Assembly: GCF_001544015.1 (NCBI RefSeq)
Contig: NZ_AP014924.1
Location: 3,658,001-3,722,000 of the forward strand
Length of the DNA stretch: 64,000 nt
Reading direction: 5' to 3'
From: Limnochorda pilosa
GTDB taxonomy: Bacteria; Bacillota; Limnochordia; Limnochordales; Limnochordaceae
Numbering within the stretch: the stretch's first letter is position 1; each line of letters begins with the position of its first letter. The notes below the pieces were generated by a model that saw nothing but the letters and a program-made list of their open reading frames with translations, ran no database searches and was not told where the DNA came from. Shown one piece after another: positions 9,918 to 64,000 of this stretch. Both the position numbers and the translations under genes were made by a program.

Positions 9918-11447
9918 ATGCGCTCATCCGACCGAGCGTTCGTTCGAGCCGACAACCTGGACGTGCTGCGGGAGCTTCCCGACGGCGCGTTCGACCTCGT
10001 CTACCTGGACCCGCCCTTCAACTCCAACCGGCGGTACGGGCTGGACCGCGGTCAACCGGATCGGGCGTTCCGCCGTGGCCGCCGCGCCGATGGTCCCTGG
10101 GGCCTGGCCTTCGACGACGCCTGGCGCTGGGACGAGGAGACGGCTGCCGGTTTTCACGGGCTGCTGCAACGGCTCCCCCCCGGTCCCCGGGAGCTCCTGG
10201 CCACCCTCCGCCAGGCTCTTGGCGCGGGCGACCTCCTGGCCTACCTGGCCATGATGGTCCCCCGTCTCGTGGAGCTCCACCGGGTCCTGGCACCCACGGG
10301 CTCCCTCTACCTCCACTGCGATCCCCAGGCCAGCCACTACCTGAAGCTTTTCCTGGACTCCATCTTCGGCGCCGATCGCTTCCGGCGCGAAATCGTCTGG
10401 CGAAGCGGCTGGGTGAGCGGATTCAAGAGCCGCGTGCCGAACTGGGTTCGCAACCACGACACCCTCCTCTACTACACGCGGGGGCCCCGCTTCGTCTTCA
10501 ACAAGGAGGCCGCCTACCAGCCCCACCCTGAGGGCTACCAAAGGCGGGGTGGGGGTGCGAACCCGCGGGGCGTGGCCCTGGACGACGTCTGGACCGACAT
10601 CTACTCCCCGTGGATCATGAGCTTCAGCAAGGAGAAGCTGGGCTATCCCACCCAGAAGCCCATGGCTCTCATGGAGCGGATCGTACGCGTCTCCACGAGA
10701 CCCGGCATGCGCGTCCTCGACCCCTTCGCCGGCGGGGGCGCGGCGCTGGTCGCCGCTGAGGCCATGGGACGGCGCTGGCTGGGCATCGACTCCACCCACC
10801 TGGCCACGGCCATGATCCGCTACCGGATGCTCTGGCGCTTCGGGCTGGATCGGAGTCGCTTCCCCGTGCACGGGGAACCCCACGACCTCAGCGCCGCGCG
10901 GGCCCTGGCCCGGAACGACCCGCTTCAGTTCGGCTGGTGGACCCTCTCCCTCGTCCACGCCCGGCCCTTGGGGGCGGGGAGGACGCAGGAGCCAGGAGCG
11001 GGTCCGCGCATCGAGGGTGCGCTGCCAGCGAGCGCAGGGGTTCTCGACGACGAGACCCCGCCGGCGCTCGCCCCCGGCTCCGCCGCCGAGATTCCGTGGG
11101 GGATGGAAGGCGGCCCGCCGTGGACGCTGGTGATCGTCCAGGCGGTACTACGGCCTGCGGACCTCCCGGACCTGGTCCAGAGGGCCCGGGAACTGGGGGC
11201 CCAGCGGGTGCTGGCCACGGCCCTCGAGCTGCCCGCAGGCGCCACCGCGGCGGCCGGGGCCGTGGCGGGTCAGGGACGCTTCGGGTGGGCAGCGCCGGAG
11301 GATGGGGTCCAGCTTGTGACCCTTGAGGACCTGCTCCGCCGCGACCTCACCCCGGCCCTGATCCAGCGGCCGCTGCCCCAGCTCCACCTTACACCGCAGC
11401 CCCAGGGCCCCCGCGGCCGTAAGGGCCGCCGCGCCGGGCCAACCTGA
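9918..11447 (+). CDS. Solitary beta-class DNA methyltransferase with a decayed nuclease domain
   Basis: A SAM-dependent N4-cytosine or N6-adenine methyltransferase of the beta class. The catalytic motif IV (DPPFNSN, about residues 34-40) comes first and the SAM-binding motif I (DPFAGGG, about 273-279) comes near the end of the catalytic part. Residues 155-248 are nearly the same as the methyltransferase-nuclease fusion at 53760-55214 (7 differences in 94), so the two should recognise the same site. After about residue 335 the protein still aligns with the fusion's nuclease domain (QFGWWTLSLVHARP; VTLEDLLRRDLTP). However, the Mrr-type GIDG...QVK motif is gone, with VIVQAVLR in its place. GGGGGTG precedes the ATG. 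No restriction gene is adjacent. Confidence 0.88.
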   Translation: MRSSDRAFVRADNLDVLRELPDGAFDLVYLDPPFNSNRRYGLDRGQPDRAFRRGRRADGPWGLAFDDAWRWDEETAAGFHGLLQRLPPGPRELLATLRQALGAGDLLAYLAMMVPRLVELHRVLAPTGSLYLHCDPQASHYLKLFLDSIFGADRFRREIVWRSGWVSGFKSRVPNWVRNHDTLLYYTRGPRFVFNKEAAYQPHPEGYQRRGGGANPRGVALDDVWTDIYSPWIMSFSKEKLGYPTQKPMALMERIVRVSTRPGMRVLDPFAGGGAALVAAEAMGRRWLGIDSTHLATAMIRYRMLWRFGLDRSRFPVHGEPHDLSAARALARNDPLQFGWWTLSLVHARPLGAGRTQEPGAGPRIEGALPASAGVLDDETPPALAPGSAAEIPWGMEGGPPWTLVIVQAVLRPADLPDLVQRARELGAQRVLATALELPAGATAAAGAVAGQGRFGWAAPEDGVQLVTLEDLLRRDLTPALIQRPLPQLHLTPQPQGPRGRKGRRAGPT

Positions 11448-28221: not shown

Positions 28222-29142
28222 TCAGAATCGAACCCGCAGGCTCACGCGGTGGGAGCCGCCCAGGAAGGGATGCGCTTCGTACGCGTAGTCGACGCTGCCG
28301 AGGTCGAGAGCTACGCCCACACCGCCGGTGGGCGTCCAGAGCCCGTCGCGCGTCCAGAACCCCGCCCGGAGGGCCACAAGGTCCAAGCGGACCTCACCGC
28401 CCACCCGGAGGGATCCTCCCCCGAGCGTCGCGCCGTCCGGCGCCGGGGTTGCGTGGGCCGTCAGCGGCTGCTCGTACTCCACCGTTCCCAGCCACCAGGA
28501 TCCCTCGACGGCCAGCGCCAGCGTGGCACTGGAGGCCATGACCACCGGGTCGCCCCCGCCGGGCAAGACGAACCCCGGCAGGTTCCGCACCATGGCCGCC
28601 ACTCGGATCGGGCCGATCTTCGCCATCGCACCGCTGGTGAGGCTGAGGCCCAGGGAACTTGTCTCCCTCAGACCCTGGCGGTACGCCAAGACGCTGGCGC
28701 CCAGCGCCAGCTTCCCGAGGGGCCGACCGAACCCCAGCCAGGTCGCCATCTCGCTGGTACTGAAGGCAGCCAGAGGATCGCCCGCCGCGTCCCGCTCCTC
28801 GGAGGAGACCTGGACGAGCATGAAGGTCGCCCCCACGGTCGGAAGGGCCAGCGAGAGGTGCAGGTTGTTCACCACGCCGAAGTCCCGAGCGTAAAGGCTC
28901 ACCACCTCCCGATCCTCCGCCCAGGCCAGGGCCGCCGGGTTGTAGTAGGCGGCGCTGGCGCCCTCGACGATGGCGGCGTAGGCGCCTCCCATGGCGAGCG
29001 CCCGGCTGTCCGCCCCCGTGGCGGTGCTCGCGCCCGCACCCACCTGGCCCGCGGCGGCAGGTGCAACCACCCAACTCGCCCCCAGCAGAGCGACGGCGAG
29101 GATCCAGGGCCGGGCCCGGGCCGGGGTTCGAGCGAGGCTCAT
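28222..29142 (-). CDS. PorV/UPF0164-like outer-membrane beta-barrel protein
   Basis: 306 residues with a signal peptide (RPWILAVALLGASWVVAPAAAG). Right after the signal comes GADSRALAMGGAYAAIVEG and AAYYNPAALAW, the hallmark N-terminus of PorV/PorQ/UPF0164 barrels. Repeated amphipathic strands follow (LHLSLALPTVGATFMLVQ, WLGTVEYEQPL), ending in a strand that finishes in phenylalanine (HRVSLRVRF). PorV-type proteins act in type IX secretion, where they shuttle cargo. The ATG overlaps the stop of the upstream protease by 4 bases, so the two form an operon. Confidence 0.75.
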   Translation of the reverse strand: MSLARTPARARPWILAVALLGASWVVAPAAAGQVGAGASTATGADSRALAMGGAYAAIVEGASAAYYNPAALAWAEDREVVSLYARDFGVVNNLHLSLALPTVGATFMLVQVSSEERDAAGDPLAAFSTSEMATWLGFGRPLGKLALGASVLAYRQGLRETSSLGLSLTSGAMAKIGPIRVAAMVRNLPGFVLPGGGDPVVMASSATLALAVEGSWWLGTVEYEQPLTAHATPAPDGATLGGGSLRVGGEVRLDLVALRAGFWTRDGLWTPTGGVGVALDLGSVDYAYEAHPFLGGSHRVSLRVRF

Positions 29143-31046
29143 CGCTCGATCACCAGCGTCTGGGGCCGGCTCACCCGCTCGCCCGTCACCAGCACGAAGA
29201 GGTACGTCCCGTTGGCCAGCGGCCGGCCAGCGCCGTCCCTCAGGTCCCACTCGAACATCCCCTGTCCCTCGGGAATCGTCGCCTGGAACACCTCGCGCCC
29301 GCTCACATCGAAGATGCGAAGCTCCTTGGCGCCACCGCCCGCGTCGACGTAGAAGCGGGCCGTGCTGCGGGCTGGGTTGGGGCCCTGCCGAACCGGCTCT
29401 TGGCTCCGCGGGGGCGGCGTCTCTTCGTGCCTGAGCGCGGCGGCCAGGTTCAGCCGGCCGCCCGTGGCCACCCTACCGTTCAGCCCCGGCAGTCGATCCA
29501 CCGACCCCAGGAACATCTCCTTCACGGTGGGGCCCATGCCCCCGCCGGGAGCTCCCGGGAAGGGGGGCGCATCGGGGAACGCAGCCATCAGCAGGGCAGA
29601 GGCACCGGTCACCACGGGCGCGGCCATGGACGTACCGCTCGCGAAGGCGTAGGGCGGCTCGCCCGGGGCGACCCACCCGCGGGGCACCGTGGAGAGGATG
29701 AGGTCTCCCGGCGCGGCCAGGTCGACCGTGTGGGCCCCATAGTTGGAGAAGCTGGAGAGCCGGTCGTTCCAATCCGTGGCCGCCACGGCGATGACGTTGG
29801 GCAGGTCGTAGCTCGCGGGGTACGAGGGCGTCGCGTCGTTGTCGTCGCCCACCCCGTCATCGCCCCCGTTCCCTGCCGCCGCCACGAACAGCAGGCCCGT
29901 CGCCTCGATCGCATCCCGCTCGAAAGTGGAGAACTGCGGGGACCCGTAGCTCGCGTTGATGATGTGCGCGCCGTTGGCGGCCGCGTAGGCGAGGGCCTCG
30001 ATCTCGTCTGCGACGCTGCCTCCCGCCTCGCCTGCGAGGAACTTGGCCGACAGGATCCGTACCCGCCACGCCACACCGGCCACGCCCTCGCCGTTGTCGC
30101 CCTGCGCGCCGATGATCCCTGCCACGTGGGTTCCGTGGAAGTCGTCTCGTGGATCGTCGTAGACGACCCCGTTGCGAGGGTAAGTCGTGAAGTCGCACCC
30201 GTGGACGTCGTCGATGCAGCCGTTCCCGTCGTCGTCGACGCCGGGGAGGCCGCCCGCCTCCGCCGGATTCACCCACAGGTTCGCAACCAGGTCCGGATGA
30301 CCGACGTCGATGCCCGTATCGACCACGGCCACCACGATGTCAGCCGCGTCGGTGATGGTGGACCAGGCTTCGGGGGCGTCGATGTCGGCGTCGGGCGTGC
30401 CGGAGACCTGGGCGCCCGTTGGATCGTAGGCAAAGTCTTGCCCGGCGTTATCCATCGCCCACTGGCGGACGAAGAGGGGGTCGTTGGGTCTCACCCGGGT
30501 CTGCGTCGGATACCGCAGGTAGTTGGGCTCCGCGTAAAGGACGTCGGGGTCCTCGCGAAGGCGCGAGAGTGCATCCTCCACGCCCAGCGCGTCAGGAAGG
30601 CGGACGTGGTAGAGGCGTAGCCGTCCCCCCACCGAGGGGGCCGGCTCGTGACCCCGGGGTAGCTCGAGGACGCGCATCACCTTGGCTCCCAGGGCCTCGA
30701 TCTTTCGAACGGCCACGGCGCGGGGCCCATCGGGCTGGCCGGGCGACGGCCCCGCCGCCCCGTCCGCCTCTTCGCGGAACCGGACCAGCAGCTCGCCCTC
30801 CCGGTACGCGGGCCGCCTTCCCGGAGCGCCGGGCACCCGCAGGACGGGTTGCGGAGTGCTTGCCGGCTCCGGCGCCGGGTGCGCTCCCGCCCGAGCCACG
30901 TCCCCGGGCGGCGCCACGCCCAGCACGAGGGCGAGCACCAGCCAGGGCACGAGAGCCCTGACGGGCCTCGCGCGCGAGAGAAGCGGGTGCGCACCTCGGG
31001 CTCGATGGGCGTCCAAGCATGGCCTTACGAACACGCGTCCGTCCAA
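29139..31046 (-). CDS. Secreted subtilisin-like S8 protease with FlgD-like C-terminal domain
   Basis: 635 residues with a signal segment (ALVPWLVLALVLGVAPPG) and a propeptide-like region (about 70-190, YREGELLVRFREE). The S8 catalytic domain has Asp in VVDTGIDVGHPDL, His in FHGTHVAGIIG, the oxyanion Asn in FVAAAGN and Ser in SGTSMAAPVVTG. The last about 80 residues are a FlgD/T9SS-type Ig-like domain (KELRIFDVSGREVF, WDLRDGAGRPLANGTYLF). Such domains often serve in sorting or anchoring to the outer membrane. TTG at 31046 has GGAGGTG seven bases upstream. Translationally coupled to the PorV-like gene. Confidence 0.88.
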   Translation of the reverse strand: MDGRVFVRPCLDAHRARGAHPLLSRARPVRALVPWLVLALVLGVAPPGDVARAGAHPAPEPASTPQPVLRVPGAPGRRPAYREGELLVRFREEADGAAGPSPGQPDGPRAVAVRKIEALGAKVMRVLELPRGHEPAPSVGGRLRLYHVRLPDALGVEDALSRLREDPDVLYAEPNYLRYPTQTRVRPNDPLFVRQWAMDNAGQDFAYDPTGAQVSGTPDADIDAPEAWSTITDAADIVVAVVDTGIDVGHPDLVANLWVNPAEAGGLPGVDDDGNGCIDDVHGCDFTTYPRNGVVYDDPRDDFHGTHVAGIIGAQGDNGEGVAGVAWRVRILSAKFLAGEAGGSVADEIEALAYAAANGAHIINASYGSPQFSTFERDAIEATGLLFVAAAGNGGDDGVGDDNDATPSYPASYDLPNVIAVAATDWNDRLSSFSNYGAHTVDLAAPGDLILSTVPRGWVAPGEPPYAFASGTSMAAPVVTGASALLMAAFPDAPPFPGAPGGGMGPTVKEMFLGSVDRLPGLNGRVATGGRLNLAAALRHEETPPPRSQEPVRQGPNPARSTARFYVDAGGGAKELRIFDVSGREVFQATIPEGQGMFEWDLRDGAGRPLANGTYLFVLVTGERVSRPQTLVIER

Positions 31047-39604: not shown

Positions 39605-42025
39605 TCACCATCCGCTTCCCGCAACCCGGCCTGTGGCCGGCCCGTCCGGCCGCAGGCGCGCCACCAGCACGGTGGCGTCGTCGTGGCGATCCGGCCCCCA
39701 GAGCTCACGCGCCCGGGCCACAAGGATCTCCGCCAGCACCGCCGGGTCCTCACCGTGGAACCTGGCCACCTCCTCTGCCAGCCAGTCGGGCCGGAAGCGT
39801 CCCCCTGCCTCCCAAAGGCCGTCGCTGGCCAGGATCACCCGATCGTCGGGCCCCAGGGAGACCACACGCACGTCGGCCTCCACCTCGTCCAACACCCCTG
39901 CCGGCGGGCTCTCGCCCTCCACGATCTCCAACCGCCCGGCCCGAACCAGGAGCGAGGGGGCCGCGCCGATCTTGACGATCTCCGCCTCACCGCTGTAGAG
40001 GTCCACCACCAGCATGTCCAGGGTGGCGAAGCGCACCTCAGGCGATCGGGCCCTGAGAAGGGTGTTCAAGGTTCGGACCGACGCGTGCAGCTCCAGCCCC
40101 GCCTCCAGGAGCGACTGGAGCAGCGTCACCGCTGCGTGGCTCTCCTGCCACGCGGGCACCCCCGTGCCCATGCCGTCGCTGAGGACCACCGCCACGCGCC
40201 CGTCCACCAGCTCGGTACGCTCCACGCAGTCACCCGAGTGCAGCTCCCCTTCGCGCAGGACGGCCGCATCGGCCACCTCCAGCGCGTAGCGCCGGCGCGC
40301 CACCAGCTCGAAGCGGCAGCCCATCTGCCCGGGGCCCTCCAAGCAGGAAGCGTTCCACACCGCGTAGGGCCTTCCCAGGCGACGCGAGACCAACGGGGCG
40401 ATGACCCGCTCGCAGTGTCCCGGACCCGGGCATCGACCCCGAAGCTGGCCCGTGACGCGGTACCGGTTGGGTCCCACCCGGCTGCATCGGAGCCGTTTCA
40501 GGTCCACCGTTCCGGCCAGGGTTCTCCGCAGCGCCCGCTCCACCTCCCCCACGTTCTGTGCCCGGTCCTCCACCCGGCTGGCCATGGCGTCCAGTAACCG
40601 GGAGACTCCCCGGAGCTGCTCGGGAAGAAGGACATTGTGCCGATGCGACCGGCCCAGCTCCTCCTGCGCTGTCCGGAAGCGCGGCAGGGTGAGGCCGACG
40701 CCCTTCAACAGCCGGTCGTGGTGGGTGCAGCGGAGGCTCAGCCGCCGGGGTAACCCGGCCTCGGACAGACTCGCCGCCGAGCTCTCCACCGTTCCCACCA
40801 GCTCCACCATGTCCCAGTAGGTCGCATACGCCTCGCGGCCCCAGCACCGTTCGTGCGCGGGGCAGCCCTGGCAAGCCTCAGCATGGACGGCCTGGATGAA
40901 GAGCCCGACCTCCTCGTCGGGCCGCGCCTGCCGCTCGGGCTCGAGCTGGCGGGCCATCCGGTCGAAGAGGCCTCCCACCTTCCGCAGATCCGCCCCCACC
41001 TCGACGCGCAGGTCGGGTTCCTGGGCCGCTTGGCCCCCCGTCCCCCACCGCGCCTCCCAGCGCCGCAGCACCTCGCGCGGCAGCAGGGCGGTAAGGATCG
41101 TCGCCGTCACCGCCGAGAGGAAGACCTGCTCCATGGCCGCAGGGTCCGCCACCTGGGGTGCGGTCAGGAGCAGGCCCGCCCAGAAGCCCGCGAGTGCCGC
41201 CAGGCGTCCAAGCGGCCGCAGCAGACCCGCCACCAACCCCGCCAGGCCCAGCAGCGCCGCCCAGCCCGGCGGGTAGCCGAAGCTCCACGCCCACACCGCC
41301 CCCATCCCCAGTCCGAGGCCTGCACCCGCCCCCGCACCCGCCACCAGGGCGGCGAGCTGCACCAGAACGAACGCGCCAAGCCACCCCGGCTGCAGGAGCT
41401 CGCCGCGCCATCCCCACAGCGCGCTCCCGCACAGGACGACAAGCACGGCCAGACCTAGACTGCGGGGCAGGTCCCACTCCAGGTCCTGCCCTGCCAGGGG
41501 CATCCAGAGGAGGAAGCCAGCCGCAAGACCCAGGGCGGGCAGGATCAGCTCCTGCAGGGCCGCGAGCGATGTCGCCTGGCCGGAAGAGTCCAGCAGGCCC
41601 GCACCACCCTGAAGGACCGCCAGGAGCAGGGCCTGCCAGCCTGGAGCCACCCGCGCTCCCCCGCGGTGCGCCCGCAGGGCCGCGTGGGCGAGGGTGAAGA
41701 GCAGCAGGACCATCAGCTCTCGCCCCACGCTCCCCGGCGCCGTCCTCAGGCCGCCGAGCACCATCCCTCCCACCACGGCCGCCACCCGCCCCCACTGGCC
41801 CGCAGCGGCGGCGGTCGCCCCCAGAGCCCCGGCCCACACCCCTCCCGGCGTTCCGGGCAAGGGGACTCCTACCAGCAGGAACCCGGCCACTCCCAAGGCC
41901 GCAAGGTGCCCCAGCCCCTGCAACCGCTCCCAGGGGAGACGCCGGCCTCCCCGAGATCGTCCCAATGGGGCAAGTCTCGCTGGCGTCGCACGGTACAGGT
42001 GGGCATTCGGGGCATCGGAAGCCAT
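39605..42025 (-). CDS. spoIIE: Stage II sporulation protein E, PP2C-type phosphatase
   Basis: In spore formers SpoIIE dephosphorylates SpoIIAA in the forespore and so releases sigma-F; it also associates with the division septum. The 806-residue protein has about ten hydrophobic segments in residues 40-310, a central FtsZ-interacting-type region, and a C-terminal PP2C domain (about 590-806). Metal-binding aspartates lie in VVLSDGMGTGVPA and ILASDGLWEAGG, with a late DRHDDATVLVARL. I chose ATG 42025, which has GGGAGGG eight bases upstream. It lies next to ftsH, as in Bacillus, but without the intervening tilS/hpt. Confidence 0.93.
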   Translation of the reverse strand: MASDAPNAHLYRATPARLAPLGRSRGGRRLPWERLQGLGHLAALGVAGFLLVGVPLPGTPGGVWAGALGATAAAAGQWGRVAAVVGGMVLGGLRTAPGSVGRELMVLLLFTLAHAALRAHRGGARVAPGWQALLLAVLQGGAGLLDSSGQATSLAALQELILPALGLAAGFLLWMPLAGQDLEWDLPRSLGLAVLVVLCGSALWGWRGELLQPGWLGAFVLVQLAALVAGAGAGAGLGLGMGAVWAWSFGYPPGWAALLGLAGLVAGLLRPLGRLAALAGFWAGLLLTAPQVADPAAMEQVFLSAVTATILTALLPREVLRRWEARWGTGGQAAQEPDLRVEVGADLRKVGGLFDRMARQLEPERQARPDEEVGLFIQAVHAEACQGCPAHERCWGREAYATYWDMVELVGTVESSAASLSEAGLPRRLSLRCTHHDRLLKGVGLTLPRFRTAQEELGRSHRHNVLLPEQLRGVSRLLDAMASRVEDRAQNVGEVERALRRTLAGTVDLKRLRCSRVGPNRYRVTGQLRGRCPGPGHCERVIAPLVSRRLGRPYAVWNASCLEGPGQMGCRFELVARRRYALEVADAAVLREGELHSGDCVERTELVDGRVAVVLSDGMGTGVPAWQESHAAVTLLQSLLEAGLELHASVRTLNTLLRARSPEVRFATLDMLVVDLYSGEAEIVKIGAAPSLLVRAGRLEIVEGESPPAGVLDEVEADVRVVSLGPDDRVILASDGLWEAGGRFRPDWLAEEVARFHGEDPAVLAEILVARARELWGPDRHDDATVLVARLRPDGPATGRVAGSGW

Positions 42026-53759: not shown

Positions 53760-55214
53760 TCACATCCCGAGCTGCCCCTGCTCGACCGGCCGGTCCTTAC
53801 TCGCTCGCTTCGCCCGTTGGAAAGTTGCCTCGGCAAGACGAGGGAACTCGAGCCGCGCGTGGCCCGCGAGCAGGTCCTCGATAGTGAGGATCTGGATCCT
53901 CGGGTATCGCTTCCCCGGCAAGGAGGGAGGCTCGTACAAACCTGCTGCTGCTGCCTCCTTCACCATCGGTTTGGTCGGCGCTTCAAGGGTGATGAAGGCA
54001 CCGATCGGGGCCTTCTCTCGCTCGAGCACACCCTTCAGGTCACGGATCTGCGAAGCTGTGACGTTGCCGCTCTTCACCTGGACGATGATGGTCTTCGCCT
54101 TCCCGGAGCCATCATCAAAGAAGTTGATGTAACCATCGATCCCGGTGTCGGCGCCCTTCTTCTTGTCGTGCGCTGGCCTGGCGTCGATCAGGCCAAGGGC
54201 CCACCACTCGAACTGGAAACGGCCATCCTTCTCGTCAAGCAGGGCCCGGGCATCTTCGACGGTGGTCGGCGCACCTAAGACCTCGTAGGGTGACAGCTCC
54301 TCGCTGAACGCGTCATGGAGTCGGTGCTTCATCAAGGCAATGGCAAGGTGGGTGATGTCGATCCCGATCCAGCGACGGTTCAACCGTTCGGCCACCGCGA
54401 CCGCGGTGCCGCAACCGCAGAATGGGTCGAGGACCACATCGCCCTCGTTACTGCTGACCTGGATGATACGCTCTAGGAGAGCCTCGGGCTTTTGGGTGGG
54501 GTAGCCCAGCTTCTCTCTGCTAAAGCTCATGATCCACGGGGAGTAGACGTCGGTCCAGACGTCGTCCAGGGCCACGCCCCGCGGGTTCGCGCCACCGCCC
54601 CTCCGCTGGTAGCCCTCAGGGTGGGGCTGATAAGCGGCCTCTTTGTTGAAGACGAACCGGGCCCCCCGCGTGTAGTAGAGGATGGTATCGTGGTTGCGGA
54701 TCCAGTTCGAGGCGCGACTCTTGAAACCGCTTACCCAACCGCTTCGCCAGACGATCTCCCGCCGGAAGCGCTCTGCGCCGAAGACAGCGTCCAGCAGGAG
54801 CTTGATGTAGTGGCTGGCAGTCGGGTCGCAGTGGAGGTAAAGGCTCCCTGTAGGCTTCAGCACTCGGTGAAGCTCCACGAGGCGGATGGACATCATGGTG
54901 AGGTAGGCCATCATATCATTCTGGCCGAGGAAGGCTCTGAGGGCCTGCAGGAGATTGGCCAGGTCCCTAGGCCCCTCGGTCACCACCTCACGGTAGGCCC
55001 TCTCGGATTCGAGCCCCCAATGCCACGTGTCCTCAAAGGCGGTGATTTGTGCCTGAGATGCTTCGCCCGATGGCTCCTTGAAGAGCACGTTGTAGGTGGC
55101 GTTCGAGTTGAACGGCGGGTCGAGGTAGATGAGGTCCACGGACTCGTCTGGGACGTGCTCCCGGAGGATCGTGAGGTTGTCGCCCAGGTAGAACTTGTTC
55201 ACCCAGCCGTCCAT
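53760..55214 (-). CDS. DNA methyltransferase fused to an Mrr-like nuclease domain (single-chain R-M)
   Basis: 484 residues. The N-terminal part is a beta-class N4/N6 methyltransferase: catalytic DPPFNSN at about residues 32-38 and SAM motif DPFCGCGTA at about 266-274, the latter followed by RWIGIDITHLA. After a hinge (QFEWWALGLIDARP) comes a PD-(D/E)xK domain of Mrr type: GIDGYINF near residue 356 and IIVQVKSG near 377 supply the Asp and Q-x-K. Modification and cleavage in one chain is the layout of self-contained restriction-modification enzymes. GGGAGGG lies 9 bases before the ATG. A near-identical specificity block occurs in the methyltransferase at 9918. Confidence 0.88.
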   Translation of the reverse strand: MDGWVNKFYLGDNLTILREHVPDESVDLIYLDPPFNSNATYNVLFKEPSGEASQAQITAFEDTWHWGLESERAYREVVTEGPRDLANLLQALRAFLGQNDMMAYLTMMSIRLVELHRVLKPTGSLYLHCDPTASHYIKLLLDAVFGAERFRREIVWRSGWVSGFKSRASNWIRNHDTILYYTRGARFVFNKEAAYQPHPEGYQRRGGGANPRGVALDDVWTDVYSPWIMSFSREKLGYPTQKPEALLERIIQVSSNEGDVVLDPFCGCGTAVAVAERLNRRWIGIDITHLAIALMKHRLHDAFSEELSPYEVLGAPTTVEDARALLDEKDGRFQFEWWALGLIDARPAHDKKKGADTGIDGYINFFDDGSGKAKTIIVQVKSGNVTASQIRDLKGVLEREKAPIGAFITLEAPTKPMVKEAAAAGLYEPPSLPGKRYPRIQILTIEDLLAGHARLEFPRLAEATFQRAKRASKDRPVEQGQLGM

Positions 55215-58156: not shown

Positions 58157-61100
58157 GTGAAGCAGCGCTCAGGCTGGCAGGCAACTCGCGCGTCCAGGTC
58201 TCTTGCAAGCGGTCTGATCATCGGCCTCCTCTGCACGCTGGCCCCATGGGTGGCTCTGGCCGCCACTTTCACCGTGGACTCACTCGCGGACAGCCACGAT
58301 CATACGCCCGGCGACGGGTCATGCGCCGATCAGTCAGGCGCGTGCACGCTTCGGGCGGCCATCGAAGACGCGAGCACCAACGGGGAGCCCGACACCATCC
58401 TCTTCGCCATCGACGGGGTCATTAGCCTCGTCCTCGGCCCCATTGAGCTTCTGGAAGGCGCGACGACCATCGCAGGGGCGGACGGTCGCGTCACGGTCGA
58501 CGGGTCCGGGAATCCGCAGGATACGGATAACTTCCTGATTCGCTCGGACGACAACGTGATCCGAGGGCTTATGGTCCAGAATGCGCGGCGAGACGGCATA
58601 CGCATCGAAGGCGCGCGCAACATCATCGGCGGCAGCGAGCCCGGGCACCGAAACGTCATCAGCCTCAACTCAAGCGCAGGAATCCACATTGATGGTGCTG
58701 GCGCGCTCGACAACGTGATCAGCGGTAACTACATTGGGACGGATCCAACGGGGAGGTTCGCGCGAGGCAACGCCTACTACGGCATCTATGTGCTCCGTGG
58801 TGAGCACACCATCATTGGCGGCGATACCCCATCAGAGCGGAATCTTATCTCGGGCAATGGGGAGTACGGGATCTACATCCTTGAAGCGAACAACAACGTA
58901 GTTAGCGGCAATTACGTAGGGACGGCGATTGATGGTGAAGTCGCCATAGGTAATAGTATAGGCGTCTCTATCGGGGGCTGGTCGACAGGCAACGTGGTTG
59001 GCGGCGACACGCCTGCAGAGCGGAACCTTGTCTCGGGAAACGGGAAAGGAATCGAGATCGGGCAACCTGGAGCTGCTGATAATGTGGTGATCGGTAACCT
59101 TATAGGCACGGACGTGAGCGGGACACGTGCGCTCGGCAACTCTACTGGTGTGGTCATCGTATCCGGCGCGACGTCCAACACAATTGGAGGTACGTCGGCC
59201 AGCGTCCGTAACGTGATCTCGGGCAACGTCTCGAGCGGAGTACAGATCGTGAGCAGCGGCACGACTGGTAACGCTGTCATCGGGAACTACATCGGAACCG
59301 ACATCTCGGGCACTGTGGCCCTGGGCAACGGCCGTGACGGTGTTTCTCTGGAATACGGCACTCACGACAACATTGTCGGTGGGGAGAACCCAGGGGCGGG
59401 TAACGTCATCGCGTCCAACCAAGGGGCTGGCGTGCGGCTACTCCAGTCCACGAGCAACGTCGTCGCAGGCAACCGCATCGGTACCGACGCGAACGGCTCC
59501 AAGGCACTTGGCAACGGCCATGGGATCCTGCTTGAAAGCGCTGCCGCAGCCAACGTCATAGGTGGAGATACGCCTGAGTCCGGCAATCTCATCGCCTTTA
59601 ACGGAACCGGCATCACCATGACGGGGTCAAGTACCAGGTTCAACAAGATCCGCTATAACAGCATGCGGGAGAACTCGGGGCCGGGCATCGTGATTTCCAA
59701 TGGTGCTCAGGATGGCATATCACCGCCAACGATTCATAGCGCCGATCTCACGATGGTCGTCGGCACGGCCGCCTCGGGTGGGATGACCATTGATCTCTAC
59801 CTCGCCGACGGCGACCCTTCAGGTGCCGGTGAGGGCGAGACATTCGTGACAACAGGCGTAACTGGCGAGAACGGCGACTTCGCCATTCCCGTTTCGGGCC
59901 TGTCAGCAGACGATGTACTGACGGCTACCGCGACCGACGCCTCGGGCAATACTTCGGCCTTCGCCCTCAACGTGGAAGTCAACGTCCCTCCCGTGGCCCA
60001 GGCTGGTCCAGATCAACTTGTACTGGTTGGCCAAGCAATGCAGCTTGACGGATCGGGGTCCCATGACCCGGACGGCGATTCGCTCTCGTATTCCTGGTCT
60101 TTCGTTTCGAAGCCTCCTTCCAGCGGGGCTGCCCTGGCCGACCCCTTCGCGCAGGCGCCGACTTTCGTCCCCGATGTCGCAGGAGAGTACCGGGTGGAGT
60201 TGGTCGTGGACGACGGCCACGGAGAAACTGACCGAGATGAGGTGACCGTCACCGCCAACACTCCGCCGGTGGCGGATGTGGGGCCTGATCAGCGTGTGCT
60301 GCCGGGGACAACGGTGCAGCTCGAGGGGTCTGGCTCCACTGACCCAGACGGGGACCCCCTCGCCTACGGGTGGGAGTTCGTCTTCAGGCCAGCGGGAAGC
60401 GAGGCGGTGCTGGCTGGCGCGAGTACGCCCACGGCCAGCTTCGTGGCCGATGTGGCGGGAGTTTACACCGTCCGGCTGACGGTGGACGACGGGCGTGGAG
60501 GGACTGCCCAGGACGAGGTCACCATCACCGCCAACACGCCGCCCGTAGCGAACGCGGGGCCGGGCCGTATCGTGCTCTTGGGTTCCACCGTACAGCTTGA
60601 CGGCTCAGGGTCACATGATCCTGACGGGGACCAGCTGAGCTACCGCTGGACTCTGGTATCGGCCCCGAGCGGAAGCTCCGCTGCCTTGTCCGACCCGGCC
60701 TTGCCAGCGCCGACCTTCGACGCCGATGTGGCTGGGGCTTACGTACTGGAACTGGTTGTGACGGACAGCAGGGACGAGACGGGCGTGGATCAGGTGACCA
60801 TCACGGCCAACACCCGGCCACTGGCCGATGCAGGATTGGACCAGCGAGTTCTGCCAGGAACAACGGTCCATCTCGACGGATCCGGCTCCAGTGACCCCGA
60901 CGGGGATCCGCTGGTTTATGAATGGGGGTTCGTCTCCAGACCCTTGGGGAGTGAGGCGGCGCTCGCTGGCGCCTCGACCTCCACGGCCAGCTTCGTGGCC
61001 GATACGGCAGGGGTCTATGCCGTGCGGCTGACCGTAGAGGACGGTCGGGGCGCGAACGACCAGGACGAGGTCACCATCACCGCCAACACGCCGCCCCTGG

Positions 61101-64000
61101 CGAACGCAGGGCCAGACCAGGTCGTCCCGCTGGGCGCGACCGTACAACTGGACGCCTCTGGCTCCTTCGACGCTGACGGGGATGACCTCATGCACAACTG
61201 GAGCCTAATCGACATGCCCGATGGCAGTAGCGCAACGCTTTCCGATCCCGCGCTCCGTGCCCCGACATTTATCGCGGACCTCCCAGGCGAGTATCGGATC
61301 GAGTTGACTGTCAGCGACGGAGCCGAAGCGAATGTCGATGTGGTCGTTGTTACAGGCAACGCTCCCCCAGTCGCCAACGCGGGAGTTGATCAAGAGGTTC
61401 TCGTAGGCAACACCGTCCTCCTCGACGGCACGGGGTCCTCGGATCCCGAGGGCGACGCGCTGTCCTACTCGTGGTACTTTGTTTCCAAGCCACCCAACAG
61501 CAACGCTGCACTTTCCGACGATGCTACGGGAACACCCAGTTTTGTCCCCGACGTTGGAGGTGAGTACGTCGTAGCAGTCGGAGTTAGTGATGGAATCAGC
61601 GACAGTGAGCCCGACACGGTCACAATAGCGGCGAATTCCCGACCGGTAGCCCGTCCAGGTGAAGACCGAGTGGTGCTGGTGGGTTCAAGCGTTGAGATGG
61701 ACGGATCAGCGTCCTTCGATCCTGACGGTGACCCGCTCACGTATGAATGGTCGTTGCTGTCGAAGCCCTCCGCCAGTGGCGCCGCCCTGGAAGGGGAAAA
61801 CACGCCGACCCCCGCCGTCGTGGTTGATATCGCAGGTACCTACGTGGTCCGGTTGACCGTTGATGACCAGAGAGGTGGCACAGGCTCCGCCGAGGTAGCG
61901 ATCCTCGCCAACACCGCACCCATCGCCGCTGCCGGAACAGACCAGTCGGTGAGTGTAGGTGATGCCGTGCAACTCGATGCCTCCGGCTCGCTCGATGCGG
62001 ACGCTGATATCCTGGCGTACGTGTGGTCGTTTCTTTCTAAGCCGACATCCAGCGGTGCCACCCTGCTCAATCCGAATGCAGCGACGGCCTCCTTCCTTTC
62101 GGACGTCGCCGGTCAATACCATCTTCAGGTGCTGGTCACGGACATCCACGGGGCTACAGGCTCTGATGAGGTAGTGATTACCGCCAACACCGCACCCGTC
62201 GCCAATGCCGGTCCAGACCAACTTGTACCTGTGGGGACAACCGTGCAGCTGGACGCTTCCGGCTCCTTCGATTCGGACGGAGACAACCTCGTGTACGAAT
62301 GGAGCCTATCGGGCATGCCCGATAGCAGTAGCGCAGTGCTCTCCGATCCCGCTCTCCCCTCCCCCACTTTCGTCGTGGACGTCCCCGGCCAGTATCAGGC
62401 AGATCTTGTTGTCAGTGACGGGCGAGAGTCGAGCTTCGACTCGACTATCGTCGTGGGAAACGCCGCCCCCGTCGCGAGTGCCGGGGCGGCTCAAGTCGTC
62501 CCCGTGGGGAAAATAGTCCGCCTTGACGGCACCGGCTCCGACGACCCCGAAGGCGATGAGCTGGCCTACTCCTGGCGCTTCGTGTTCCTCCCCGCCGGAA
62601 GCAACGCTTCGCTCGCTGGAGCGGATACGGACGCTCCAAGCTTCACCCCCGACGTCGCCGGGGAGTATGTACTGGAACTGGTTGTGAGCGATGGGCTGAG
62701 TGAGAGCCCTCCCGATCGCGTTACCGTCACTGGGAACGGCCGCCCGGTTGCCGATGTGGGACCCGATCAGGAGGTGCTGCTGGGGGCAAAAGTAACCCTC
62801 AACGGTGCAGGCTCAACCGACCCAGAAGGAGAGCCGCTGGCGTATGCGTGGGGCCTGACCGCACGCCCGGCAGGTAGCGAGGCGGCGCTGACCGGAGGCT
62901 CCACTCCAGTGGCGACCCTCGTGCCCGACCGCCCTGGAACCTACGAGGTCACCCTCACGGTCGCCGATCCATGGGGCGGCACGGATGCAGCGACCGTAGC
63001 GATCCTAGCCCGTGCCAGGCCGGTCACCACATTCGACCATGCACCCGCAACGGATCTCACGACCGCCAGCGTCATCGCGTTCGCAGACTCCTCCAGTGAC
63101 GAGGACGGGGAAATCGTGGGCTGGGAGTGGGAGTTCGGCGACGGTGCGACCAGCAATCTCCAGAACCCCTCCCACCAGTACGCCGCGCCAGGAATCTACC
63201 ACGTGTCGCTCGTCGTGACGGATGATGATGACCTCTCAAGTAACCCGGTGCGCGCCACGCTCGCTGTCGGGACGCCCGGCGCGCCCGTTGAGGGCGTATT
63301 GAGCGAGCAAGCGCCCTCGGGGGACTACACCATGGATGCCTCGGCCCTGGGTGGCATCACGTTGGTGAAGTCCGGGCCTGGTACCCCCCTGATGACTGTC
63401 GCCAGCTACGGCGGCAATCCAGTTGCCGCAGGGGTGAAGCTTTTCGCAGGAGAGGGAAGCTACTTCGACGTCAACCTCGACTCAGGCGAGGGTGTCGATG
63501 CCGTCGAACTCTCCTGGGTGGCCGGGAGCGACGTCGATCCGAGCGACTTGCACCTGATGTGGCACGACGAGCCCGCCCGTACGTGGAAGCTCGTTTCTCC
63601 CCAGCAGGTGTCTGCGGGCACGAGCGGAGTCGTACGGGTCGTCGCCCGTCTCGACGGGGCTTCCTCCCCGACGGTGGCCCAGCTTACCGGGACGATCTTC
63701 GCGGGCGGGGCCAACGCGCCACCGGAGGTAACGATCCTGGCGCCAGAGGCCGGGGCAATGTGGGAAGGCGACAAGATCATCCGCTGGGCTGCCGCCGACC
63801 CCGACGGGGACGATGGCGCGGTGACGATCGACCTCGCCTATACCTCGGCGGGCGGCAACTGGGTCTCCATCGCAGCAGGCGTGGCGAACGTCGGGGAGCA
63901 CGAGTGGGATACTTCGGTGGTTCCGGCGGGCGGGATCTACCGCGTGCGGGTCACCGCGACGGACGCGCTCGGCGGCTCGGGTGAGGCCACCAGCGAGCCG
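58157..64000 (+). CDS. Giant secreted beta-helix and Ig/PKD-repeat protein, 3' end outside window
   Basis: The frame is open for 1948 codons to the last base. GTG 58157 has AGGGGGG seven bases upstream. Order: signal peptide (LASGLIIGLLCTLAPWVALA); a CSLREAI-type N-terminus (CTLRAAIEDA, about residue 64); a right-handed beta-helix from about 150 to 500 built on turns such as NVVGGDTP, NTIGG and NIVGGENP; a linker Ig domain; eleven tandem 91-92-residue Ig-like repeats (59993-63022, each starting like VANAGPDQxV); a PKD domain (WEWEFGDGATSN, 63023-63260); then further Ig-like sequence. This is the build of surface adhesins or polysaccharide-interacting proteins. The anchor, if any, lies beyond the window. 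Confidence 0.88.
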   Translation, partial: MKQRSGWQATRASRSLASGLIIGLLCTLAPWVALAATFTVDSLADSHDHTPGDGSCADQSGACTLRAAIEDASTNGEPDTILFAIDGVISLVLGPIELLEGATTIAGADGRVTVDGSGNPQDTDNFLIRSDDNVIRGLMVQNARRDGIRIEGARNIIGGSEPGHRNVISLNSSAGIHIDGAGALDNVISGNYIGTDPTGRFARGNAYYGIYVLRGEHTIIGGDTPSERNLISGNGEYGIYILEANNNVVSGNYVGTAIDGEVAIGNSIGVSIGGWSTGNVVGGDTPAERNLVSGNGKGIEIGQPGAADNVVIGNLIGTDVSGTRALGNSTGVVIVSGATSNTIGGTSASVRNVISGNVSSGVQIVSSGTTGNAVIGNYIGTDISGTVALGNGRDGVSLEYGTHDNIVGGENPGAGNVIASNQGAGVRLLQSTSNVVAGNRIGTDANGSKALGNGHGILLESAAAANVIGGDTPESGNLIAFNGTGITMTGSSTRFNKIRYNSMRENSGPGIVISNGAQDGISPPTIHSADLTMVVGTAASGGMTIDLYLADGDPSGAGEGETFVTTGVTGENGDFAIPVSGLSADDVLTATATDASGNTSAFALNVEVNVPPVAQAGPDQLVLVGQAMQLDGSGSHDPDGDSLSYSWSFVSKPPSSGAALADPFAQAPTFVPDVAGEYRVELVVDDGHGETDRDEVTVTANTPPVADVGPDQRVLPGTTVQLEGSGSTDPDGDPLAYGWEFVFRPAGSEAVLAGASTPTASFVADVAGVYTVRLTVDDGRGGTAQDEVTITANTPPVANAGPGRIVLLGSTVQLDGSGSHDPDGDQLSYRWTLVSAPSGSSAALSDPALPAPTFDADVAGAYVLELVVTDSRDETGVDQVTITANTRPLADAGLDQRVLPGTTVHLDGSGSSDPDGDPLVYEWGFVSRPLGSEAALAGASTSTASFVADTAGVYAVRLTVEDGRGANDQDEVTITANTPPLANAGPDQVVPLGATVQLDASGSFDADGDDLMHNWSLIDMPDGSSATLSDPALRAPTFIADLPGEYRIELTVSDGAEANVDVVVVTGNAPPVANAGVDQEVLVGNTVLLDGTGSSDPEGDALSYSWYFVSKPPNSNAALSDDATGTPSFVPDVGGEYVVAVGVSDGISDSEPDTVTIAANSRPVARPGEDRVVLVGSSVEMDGSASFDPDGDPLTYEWSLLSKPSASGAALEGENTPTPAVVVDIAGTYVVRLTVDDQRGGTGSAEVAILANTAPIAAAGTDQSVSVGDAVQLDASGSLDADADILAYVWSFLSKPTSSGATLLNPNAATASFLSDVAGQYHLQVLVTDIHGATGSDEVVITANTAPVANAGPDQLVPVGTTVQLDASGSFDSDGDNLVYEWSLSGMPDSSSAVLSDPALPSPTFVVDVPGQYQADLVVSDGRESSFDSTIVVGNAAPVASAGAAQVVPVGKIVRLDGTGSDDPEGDELAYSWRFVFLPAGSNASLAGADTDAPSFTPDVAGEYVLELVVSDGLSESPPDRVTVTGNGRPVADVGPDQEVLLGAKVTLNGAGSTDPEGEPLAYAWGLTARPAGSEAALTGGSTPVATLVPDRPGTYEVTLTVADPWGGTDAATVAILARARPVTTFDHAPATDLTTASVIAFADSSSDEDGEIVGWEWEFGDGATSNLQNPSHQYAAPGIYHVSLVVTDDDDLSSNPVRATLAVGTPGAPVEGVLSEQAPSGDYTMDASALGGITLVKSGPGTPLMTVASYGGNPVAAGVKLFAGEGSYFDVNLDSGEGVDAVELSWVAGSDVDPSDLHLMWHDEPARTWKLVSPQQVSAGTSGVVRVVARLDGASSPTVAQLTGTIFAGGANAPPEVTILAPEAGAMWEGDKIIRWAAADPDGDDGAVTIDLAYTSAGGNWVSIAAGVANVGEHEWDTSVVPAGGIYRVRVTATDALGGSGEATSEP
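59993..63022 (+). repeat. Eleven tandem Ig-like modules of 276 or 273 bp
   Basis: Module starts: 59993, 60269, 60545, 60821, 61097, 61370, 61646, 61922, 62198, 62471, 62747, ending at 63022. Nine are 276 bp and two (61097, 62198) are 273 bp. Each encodes xANAGPDQxV, VQLDGSGSxDPDGDxLxYxW and a closing VTITANT-like strand. Confidence 0.9.

Follow-up and report, generated by a model that had tools for sequence, protein, structure and literature searches.

Limnochorda pilosa, a spore-forming bacterium with an expected outer membrane, appears to carry a stripped-down, type IX-like secretion (T9SS-like) export route, in which nearly every putative exported protein is encoded next to its own PorV-like carrier barrel. 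This reading rests on homology of three parts (cargo tail, barrel and a distant SprA/Sov homologue), on gene order and on co-occurrence across genomes; transport itself and carrier specificity are inferred. Here we describe one such pair, a subtilase and a predicted outer-membrane barrel, located in a 64,000-nucleotide stretch (the window; positions 3,658,001 to 3,722,000 of contig NZ_AP014924.1) of a 3.817 Mb single-contig genome. Type IX secretion is described in print as confined to Bacteroidota and related FCB phyla: PMC11285876 states that T9SS genes are absent outside FCB phyla, and PMC4793230 found them only in Bacteroidetes. No report of this system in Firmicutes was found among titles and abstract starts of open-licence papers, preprints not included, and PMC8542988 holds type IX only in its reference list. 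A SprA-PorV-tail set in spore-forming Firmicutes and Bipolaricaulota extends the kind beyond that superphylum, suggests which parts form its core, offers a small version of it, and gives diderm Firmicutes a candidate route for very large surface proteins (up to 3398 aa in this genome).

The subtilase-barrel pair and its genome

The features are listed in the table below. The stop of the subtilase and the start of the barrel overlap as ATGA, from which translational coupling is inferred. The subtilase matches Peptidase_S8 (E 4e-53), a fervidolysin-type prodomain (5e-7) and, at its C-terminus, FlgD_ig (1.7e-6; 28.3 bits, just over the cut-off of 27), whereas its match to the T9SS type A tail TIGR04183 is 22.2 bits, just under the cut-off of 23. 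The Asp, His and Ser motifs VVDTGID, HGTHVAG and GTSMAAP and a hydrophobic N-terminal stretch were read by eye in the translation, without a signal-peptide program. A promoter and terminator scan found nothing, and a plasmid search of the pair gave two S8-only matches.

Coordinates of the features of the pair and of related genes (window positions unless stated otherwise)
Position	Strand	Feature
28222-29142	-	PorV/FadL-type predicted outer-membrane barrel, 306 aa, from its ATG; ends in Phe; putative carrier for the adjoining subtilase
29139-31046	-	S8 subtilase with prodomain and C-terminal sorting tail (putative cargo), 635-aa ORF from TTG
30950	-	Alternative GTG start of the subtilase, preferred by our codon-usage caller
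29142-29393	-	C-terminal T9SS type-A-like sorting domain of the subtilase
29568-30341	-	S8 catalytic domain (residues 236-493)
29139-29142	-	ATGA overlap of cargo stop and barrel start
39605-41923		SpoIIE
58250-64000	+	5' part of a second tailed cargo (2010 aa: beta-helix and about a dozen PKD domains), which runs past the window end to genome position 3722282 (locus L031:4251-10283)
genome 3722298-3723242		Barrel following the second tailed cargo, outside the window (locus L031:10299-11243)
genome 3016545-3020735		SprA-like gene, 0.67 Mb away from the pair

The first-pass annotation, made from the sequence alone, had inferred from the pair a diderm envelope and perhaps an export route related to type IX secretion, and both hold as far as sequence can tell. 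LpxC, LpxD, OmpH/Skp and a BamA with POTRA domains lie within one 16-kb stretch of the genome, so an outer membrane is expected; the diderm nature of the class Limnochordia is already published (PMC11456536). The neighbouring spore-former gene was confirmed as SpoIIE. The annotation had called the tail FlgD-type; the tail is nearer to the T9SS type-A sorting domain, though both match, and the pair is one of seven.

Searches of the genome with PorV_fam and FlgD_ig fell in the same places, and profiles built from its own copies gave 8 strong barrels and 12 tails, some of them partial. Seven of the 8 barrels have a tail 0-117 bp upstream on the same strand, while in 200,000 random placements never more than 2 did. 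For one of the seven (genome position 3004419) the nearest tail is a remnant and the complete cargo tail ends 290 bp upstream. The eighth barrel, in a cluster at 895-898 kb, is followed by tail fragments. Cargoes include S8 proteases of 635 and 3398 aa, an M6 protease, RCC1-repeat proteins and PKD proteins.

Homology of the tail, the barrel and the SprA-like protein

All 23 tails of an alignment that includes the window copy match TIGR04183 at E 0.01 or less (first member 33.6 bits), whereas the type B model TIGR04131 matches 1 of 23 (E 0.0099) and a flagellar rod-modification model matches 13 of 23. The best PDB matches of their profile are PorU (5e-8), an antigen PG93 (2.5e-4), an ice-binding protein and a Por-secretion sorting domain (0.0013), with flagellar proteins following from 0.16. 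The window barrel scores 47.3 bits against PorV_fam, under the cut-off of 90, which 5 of its paralogues in the genome pass. A profile of the 8 own barrels hits one PDB sequence at E up to 10, PorV of the SprA complex (6h3i_F, E 2e-5). The AlphaFold2 model of the window barrel (mean pLDDT 88.4) has about 14 barrel strands (16 listed, two of them short), and its top two Foldseek hits are PorV, 8gl6_F and 6h3i_F. VIA-align, however, ties PorV (Z 29.9, rmsd 4.5, 276 aligned) with FadL (Z 29.4, rmsd 3.1, 254 aligned), so fold alone does not decide. That the barrel is an ordinary FadL-type channel for hydrophobic compounds and the tail a generic FlgD-like Ig domain, their adjacency having no secretion meaning, agrees with this tie and with the FlgD_ig and flagellar matches, but we consider it very unlikely in view of the seven pairs, the co-distribution with SprA-like genes described below, PorV as the only sequence match in the PDB, the tails being nearer T9SS sorting domains, and a Pfam FadL (PF03349) match of only 11.6 bits against a cut-off of 29.7.

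A search of the genome with Pfam PF14349 for SprA gave no hit, although nothing was detected in the controls either; the homologue was found by reading the neighbours of pairs in related genomes, where a very large outer-membrane protein stood. The only NCBIfam match of the 1481-aa part first seen was TIGR04189, Sov/SprA. An alignment of three such proteins found relatives in 13 of 72 class genomes, and strong ones in 8, this genome included. Six of 7 members match TIGR04189 (best 2.9e-10; the protein of this genome E 1.9e-7, 28.7 bits), but these proteins score far below the cut-off of 200, with 14-41 bits in 10 of 12 such genomes and none at E 0.01 in 2. A wider group of roughly 1100-1290 aa OM proteins, with weak TIGR04189 hits, shares part of the SprA region (72 columns with SprA, 139 with the Bacillota proteins), so the TIGR04189 hit alone was not taken as proof.

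For a firmer test, SprA-family proteins were taken from 7 genomes (Ignavibacteria, Zixibacteria, two Calditrichota, WOR-3, Krumholzibacteria and Elusimicrobia), of which six pass the TIGR04189 cut-off and the Elusimicrobia one does not. Profile alignment by hhalign with 11 Bacillota proteins (10 after filtering) gave 99.2%, E 1.8e-19 over 496 co-linear columns; five Bipolaricaulota-group proteins gave 97.8%, 7.8e-13 over 403 columns, and the two groups align to each other over 1291 columns. Reversed SprA, BamA and an unrelated 1070-aa protein gave nothing. Only the N-terminal third aligns to SprA: the N-terminal part cut before the most conserved domain still gave 92%, 6e-7 over 143 columns, while the C-terminal part gave nothing significant. 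An AlphaFold2 model of the first 1200 of 1388 residues of the protein from L118, a locus of a related Bacillota MAG, is moderate (pLDDT 73.5, pTM 0.43), yet the first three of 350,542 PDB chains by Foldseek are chain A of SprA complexes (E 1.9e-17 to 1.2e-14), albeit with low TM-scores (0.24 and 0.15, rmsd 27). A beta-propeller like those of two-component sensors is inserted at residues about 569-879 of the L118 protein; it fills the VIA-align list for this model, in which SprA does not appear, which is inconclusive.

A tree of 23 SprA proteins places those of Bacillota and the Bipolaricaulota group on one side and the 7 comparison SprA on the other (100/100), Bacillota as one group having only 79/78, with warnings on long branches and composition and without a SprA of a cultured Bacteroidota. 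This speaks against a recent transfer from that set. A recently acquired and now decaying piece of a Bacteroidota T9SS, to which the cluster with tail fragments might point, is most unlikely on this tree.

Co-occurrence across genomes and the inferred export route

In 72 class genomes, strong tails (69 bits or more), barrels (170 or more) and SprA-like genes (115 or more) occur in the same 8 genomes; these thresholds were chosen after seeing the gaps, the next values outside the set being 40, 126 and 26. All 10 strong tails of the 7 relatives have a barrel 45-145 bp downstream, one of these split. A MAG of the same genus and a genome of a family that has the system lack all three at these thresholds, and genomes of another family of the class have weak tails and PorV-like barrels that are not adjacent. 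In 398 phylum genomes, SprA-like genes (best hit 195 bits or more) are in 23 and tails (64 or more) in 23, both in 21, with 2 and 2 alone (Fisher 1.4e-30, not corrected for relatedness); 5 genomes of one search and 4 of the other were left out as weak. In 13 of the 21 the SprA-like gene lies within 1.8 kb downstream of a tail on the same strand, although in one of these the tail is a 44-bit fragment and in another the gap of 0.36 kb is too small for a barrel.

Genes around the pairs were called with our own codon-usage script. SprA-like genes lie within three genes of the barrel in 8 of 13 Bacillota and 6 of 16 Bipolaricaulota-group loci; background genes carry tails in 1 of 55 and 21 of 115. 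In five Bacillota MAGs, that of L118 among them, the order is cargo-barrel-SprA on one strand, while in five of the six Bipolaricaulota-group loci the SprA-like gene is on the other strand. In Elusimicrobia and in FCB/WOR-3/other loci the upstream gene has a weak tail (15 bits or more) in 9 of 18 and 12 of 27, against a background of 7 of 151 and 15 of 219; 4 of 79 loci had no barrel gene called and were dropped from that count. For the barrel model 52 of 80 candidate barrels were chosen by hand, plus that of the window, and the 20 and 21 genomes of the whole-genome TIGR04189, C25 and GldM searches were also our choice. Around 23 stretches with SprA-like genes (20 distinct places, 3 overlapping) the families shared by three or more are SprA-like, cargo and barrel, plus one ABC-transporter-like group in 3.

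In Flavobacterium johnsoniae PorV sits across the side opening of SprA, the tail binds PorV loops inside the pore, and carrier plus cargo are thought to be pulled out together (PMC10994853). We infer that Sec exports the subtilase to the periplasm, that its sorting domain binds the loops of the PorV-like barrel docked at the side opening of the SprA-like translocon, that cargo and carrier leave together through that opening, and that the protease then stays on the barrel or is cut free. We hold this reading with good, though not full, confidence. Within this genome tail and barrel distances do not clearly correlate (r=0.32, 696 of 5040 permutations as high), and two barrels 96% identical go with tails 52% identical; over 14 pairs of several genomes r=0.47 (3 of 20,000 permutations as high), but relatedness confounds that.

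An alternative is that the barrel is a surface anchor only, the tailed proteins crossing the outer membrane by another route and then docking on their barrel by the tail. A secretin gene lies 3.3 kb upstream of the SprA-like gene, and type-B cargoes of Flavobacterium can end up statically bound through their SprF-like partner (PMC12618676). This explanation appears unlikely, as it accounts neither for the coincidence of SprA-like genes and tails in 21 of 398 genomes nor for the cargo-barrel-SprA clusters.

The C25 sortase PorU (PF01364) was not found in this or 12 other Bacillota/Bipolaricaulota-group genomes, whereas it was found in 7 of 8 comparison genomes of the same search. A GldM model found nothing in any of 21 genomes or in the 14 controls, so absence of the motor is not shown. 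We therefore call the system T9SS-like and do not file it as a complete T9SS. A more tentative possibility is that cargo, PorV-like carrier and propeller-bearing SprA-like translocon form a self-sufficient three-gene exporter, which works in diderm Firmicutes and Bipolaricaulota without the rotary motor and sortase of the Bacteroidota system and may be an old branch from before the elaborate version.

Comparison with known systems

The closest known system is the type IX translocon SprA(Sov)-PorV with type-A sorting domains of Flavobacterium johnsoniae and Porphyromonas gingivalis, with which the tail, the barrel and the co-occurring SprA homologue agree. The system here differs in that the SprA-like proteins are of 1327-1677 aa, against 1768-2179 aa in the comparison set, and have the inserted propeller, in that there is nearly one PorV-like gene per cargo, in that no C25 sortase was found, and in the phylum, Bacillota. 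SprB-SprF and other type-B cargo and PorP/SprF shuttle pairs likewise have a carrier gene directly downstream of the cargo gene in most cases and several such pairs in one genome, while type-A cargoes share one PorV (PMC12618676); here, the tails match type A, the barrel matches PorV models, and no PorP/SprF model was listed for it. The system here would join type-A tails and PorV-type carriers with the one-carrier-per-cargo layout of type B. FadL/TodX channels for hydrophobic compounds have the same barrel fold with N-terminal helices, but the Pfam FadL match of the window barrel is far under its cut-off, and its genome context is one of tailed cargo.

Secretin, carrier and cargo genes

A secretin gene (PF00263, E 8e-44) was detected 3.3 kb upstream of the SprA-like gene, where it lies between a cargo-barrel pair and the translocon. 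Two of the barrels, located about 1.75 Mb apart, are 96% identical, whereas the tails of the cargoes next to them are 52% identical, indicating a recent duplication or conversion of the carrier. In another cluster the barrel is followed by three tail fragments, and this cargo cluster looks degraded. We also noted a SpoIVB-type peptidase domain protein encoded beside BamA, and two DNA methylases within the window, the second of which is fused to a restriction-endonuclease-like domain.

Coordinates of the additional features (L numbers denote individual stretches of genomic sequence; f8, a family of the class; G069, a single genome)
Location	Strand	Feature
L103:3974-5212 (genome 3011973-3013211)		Secretin gene
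L028:12722-13708 and L029:10414-11286		Two near-identical barrels
L025:8553-11862		Barrel and three tail fragments
L034:8838-10847		SpoIVB-type (S55) peptidase domain protein
Window 9918-11447	+	N6/N4 DNA methylase
Window 53760-55214	-	N6/N4 DNA methylase, fused
L079:5265-10193 and L108:3161-8112 (f8)		PorV-like barrel and outer-membrane protein of roughly 1270 aa
L110:3-7321 (G069)		Protein with FlgD-like end, 403-aa protein, 329-aa barrel-like protein and 876-aa outer-membrane protein
L217:4940-8515, L218:4223-7726, L219:4957-8244, L220:3388-6900		Outer-membrane proteins of roughly 1100-1190 aa

Further arrangements and SprA-domain proteins in other genomes

In family f8 the PorV-like barrel is divergent from the large outer-membrane protein and stands next to what look, by eye, like flagellar/chemotaxis genes, while weak-tailed proteins are encoded on other contigs; this is perhaps a more distant version. 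In G069 the four genes stand in line, as read by eye, beside genes that look like exopolysaccharide genes. Finally, in genomes with true SprA, a second group of outer-membrane proteins, whose role is unknown, shares one SprA domain.
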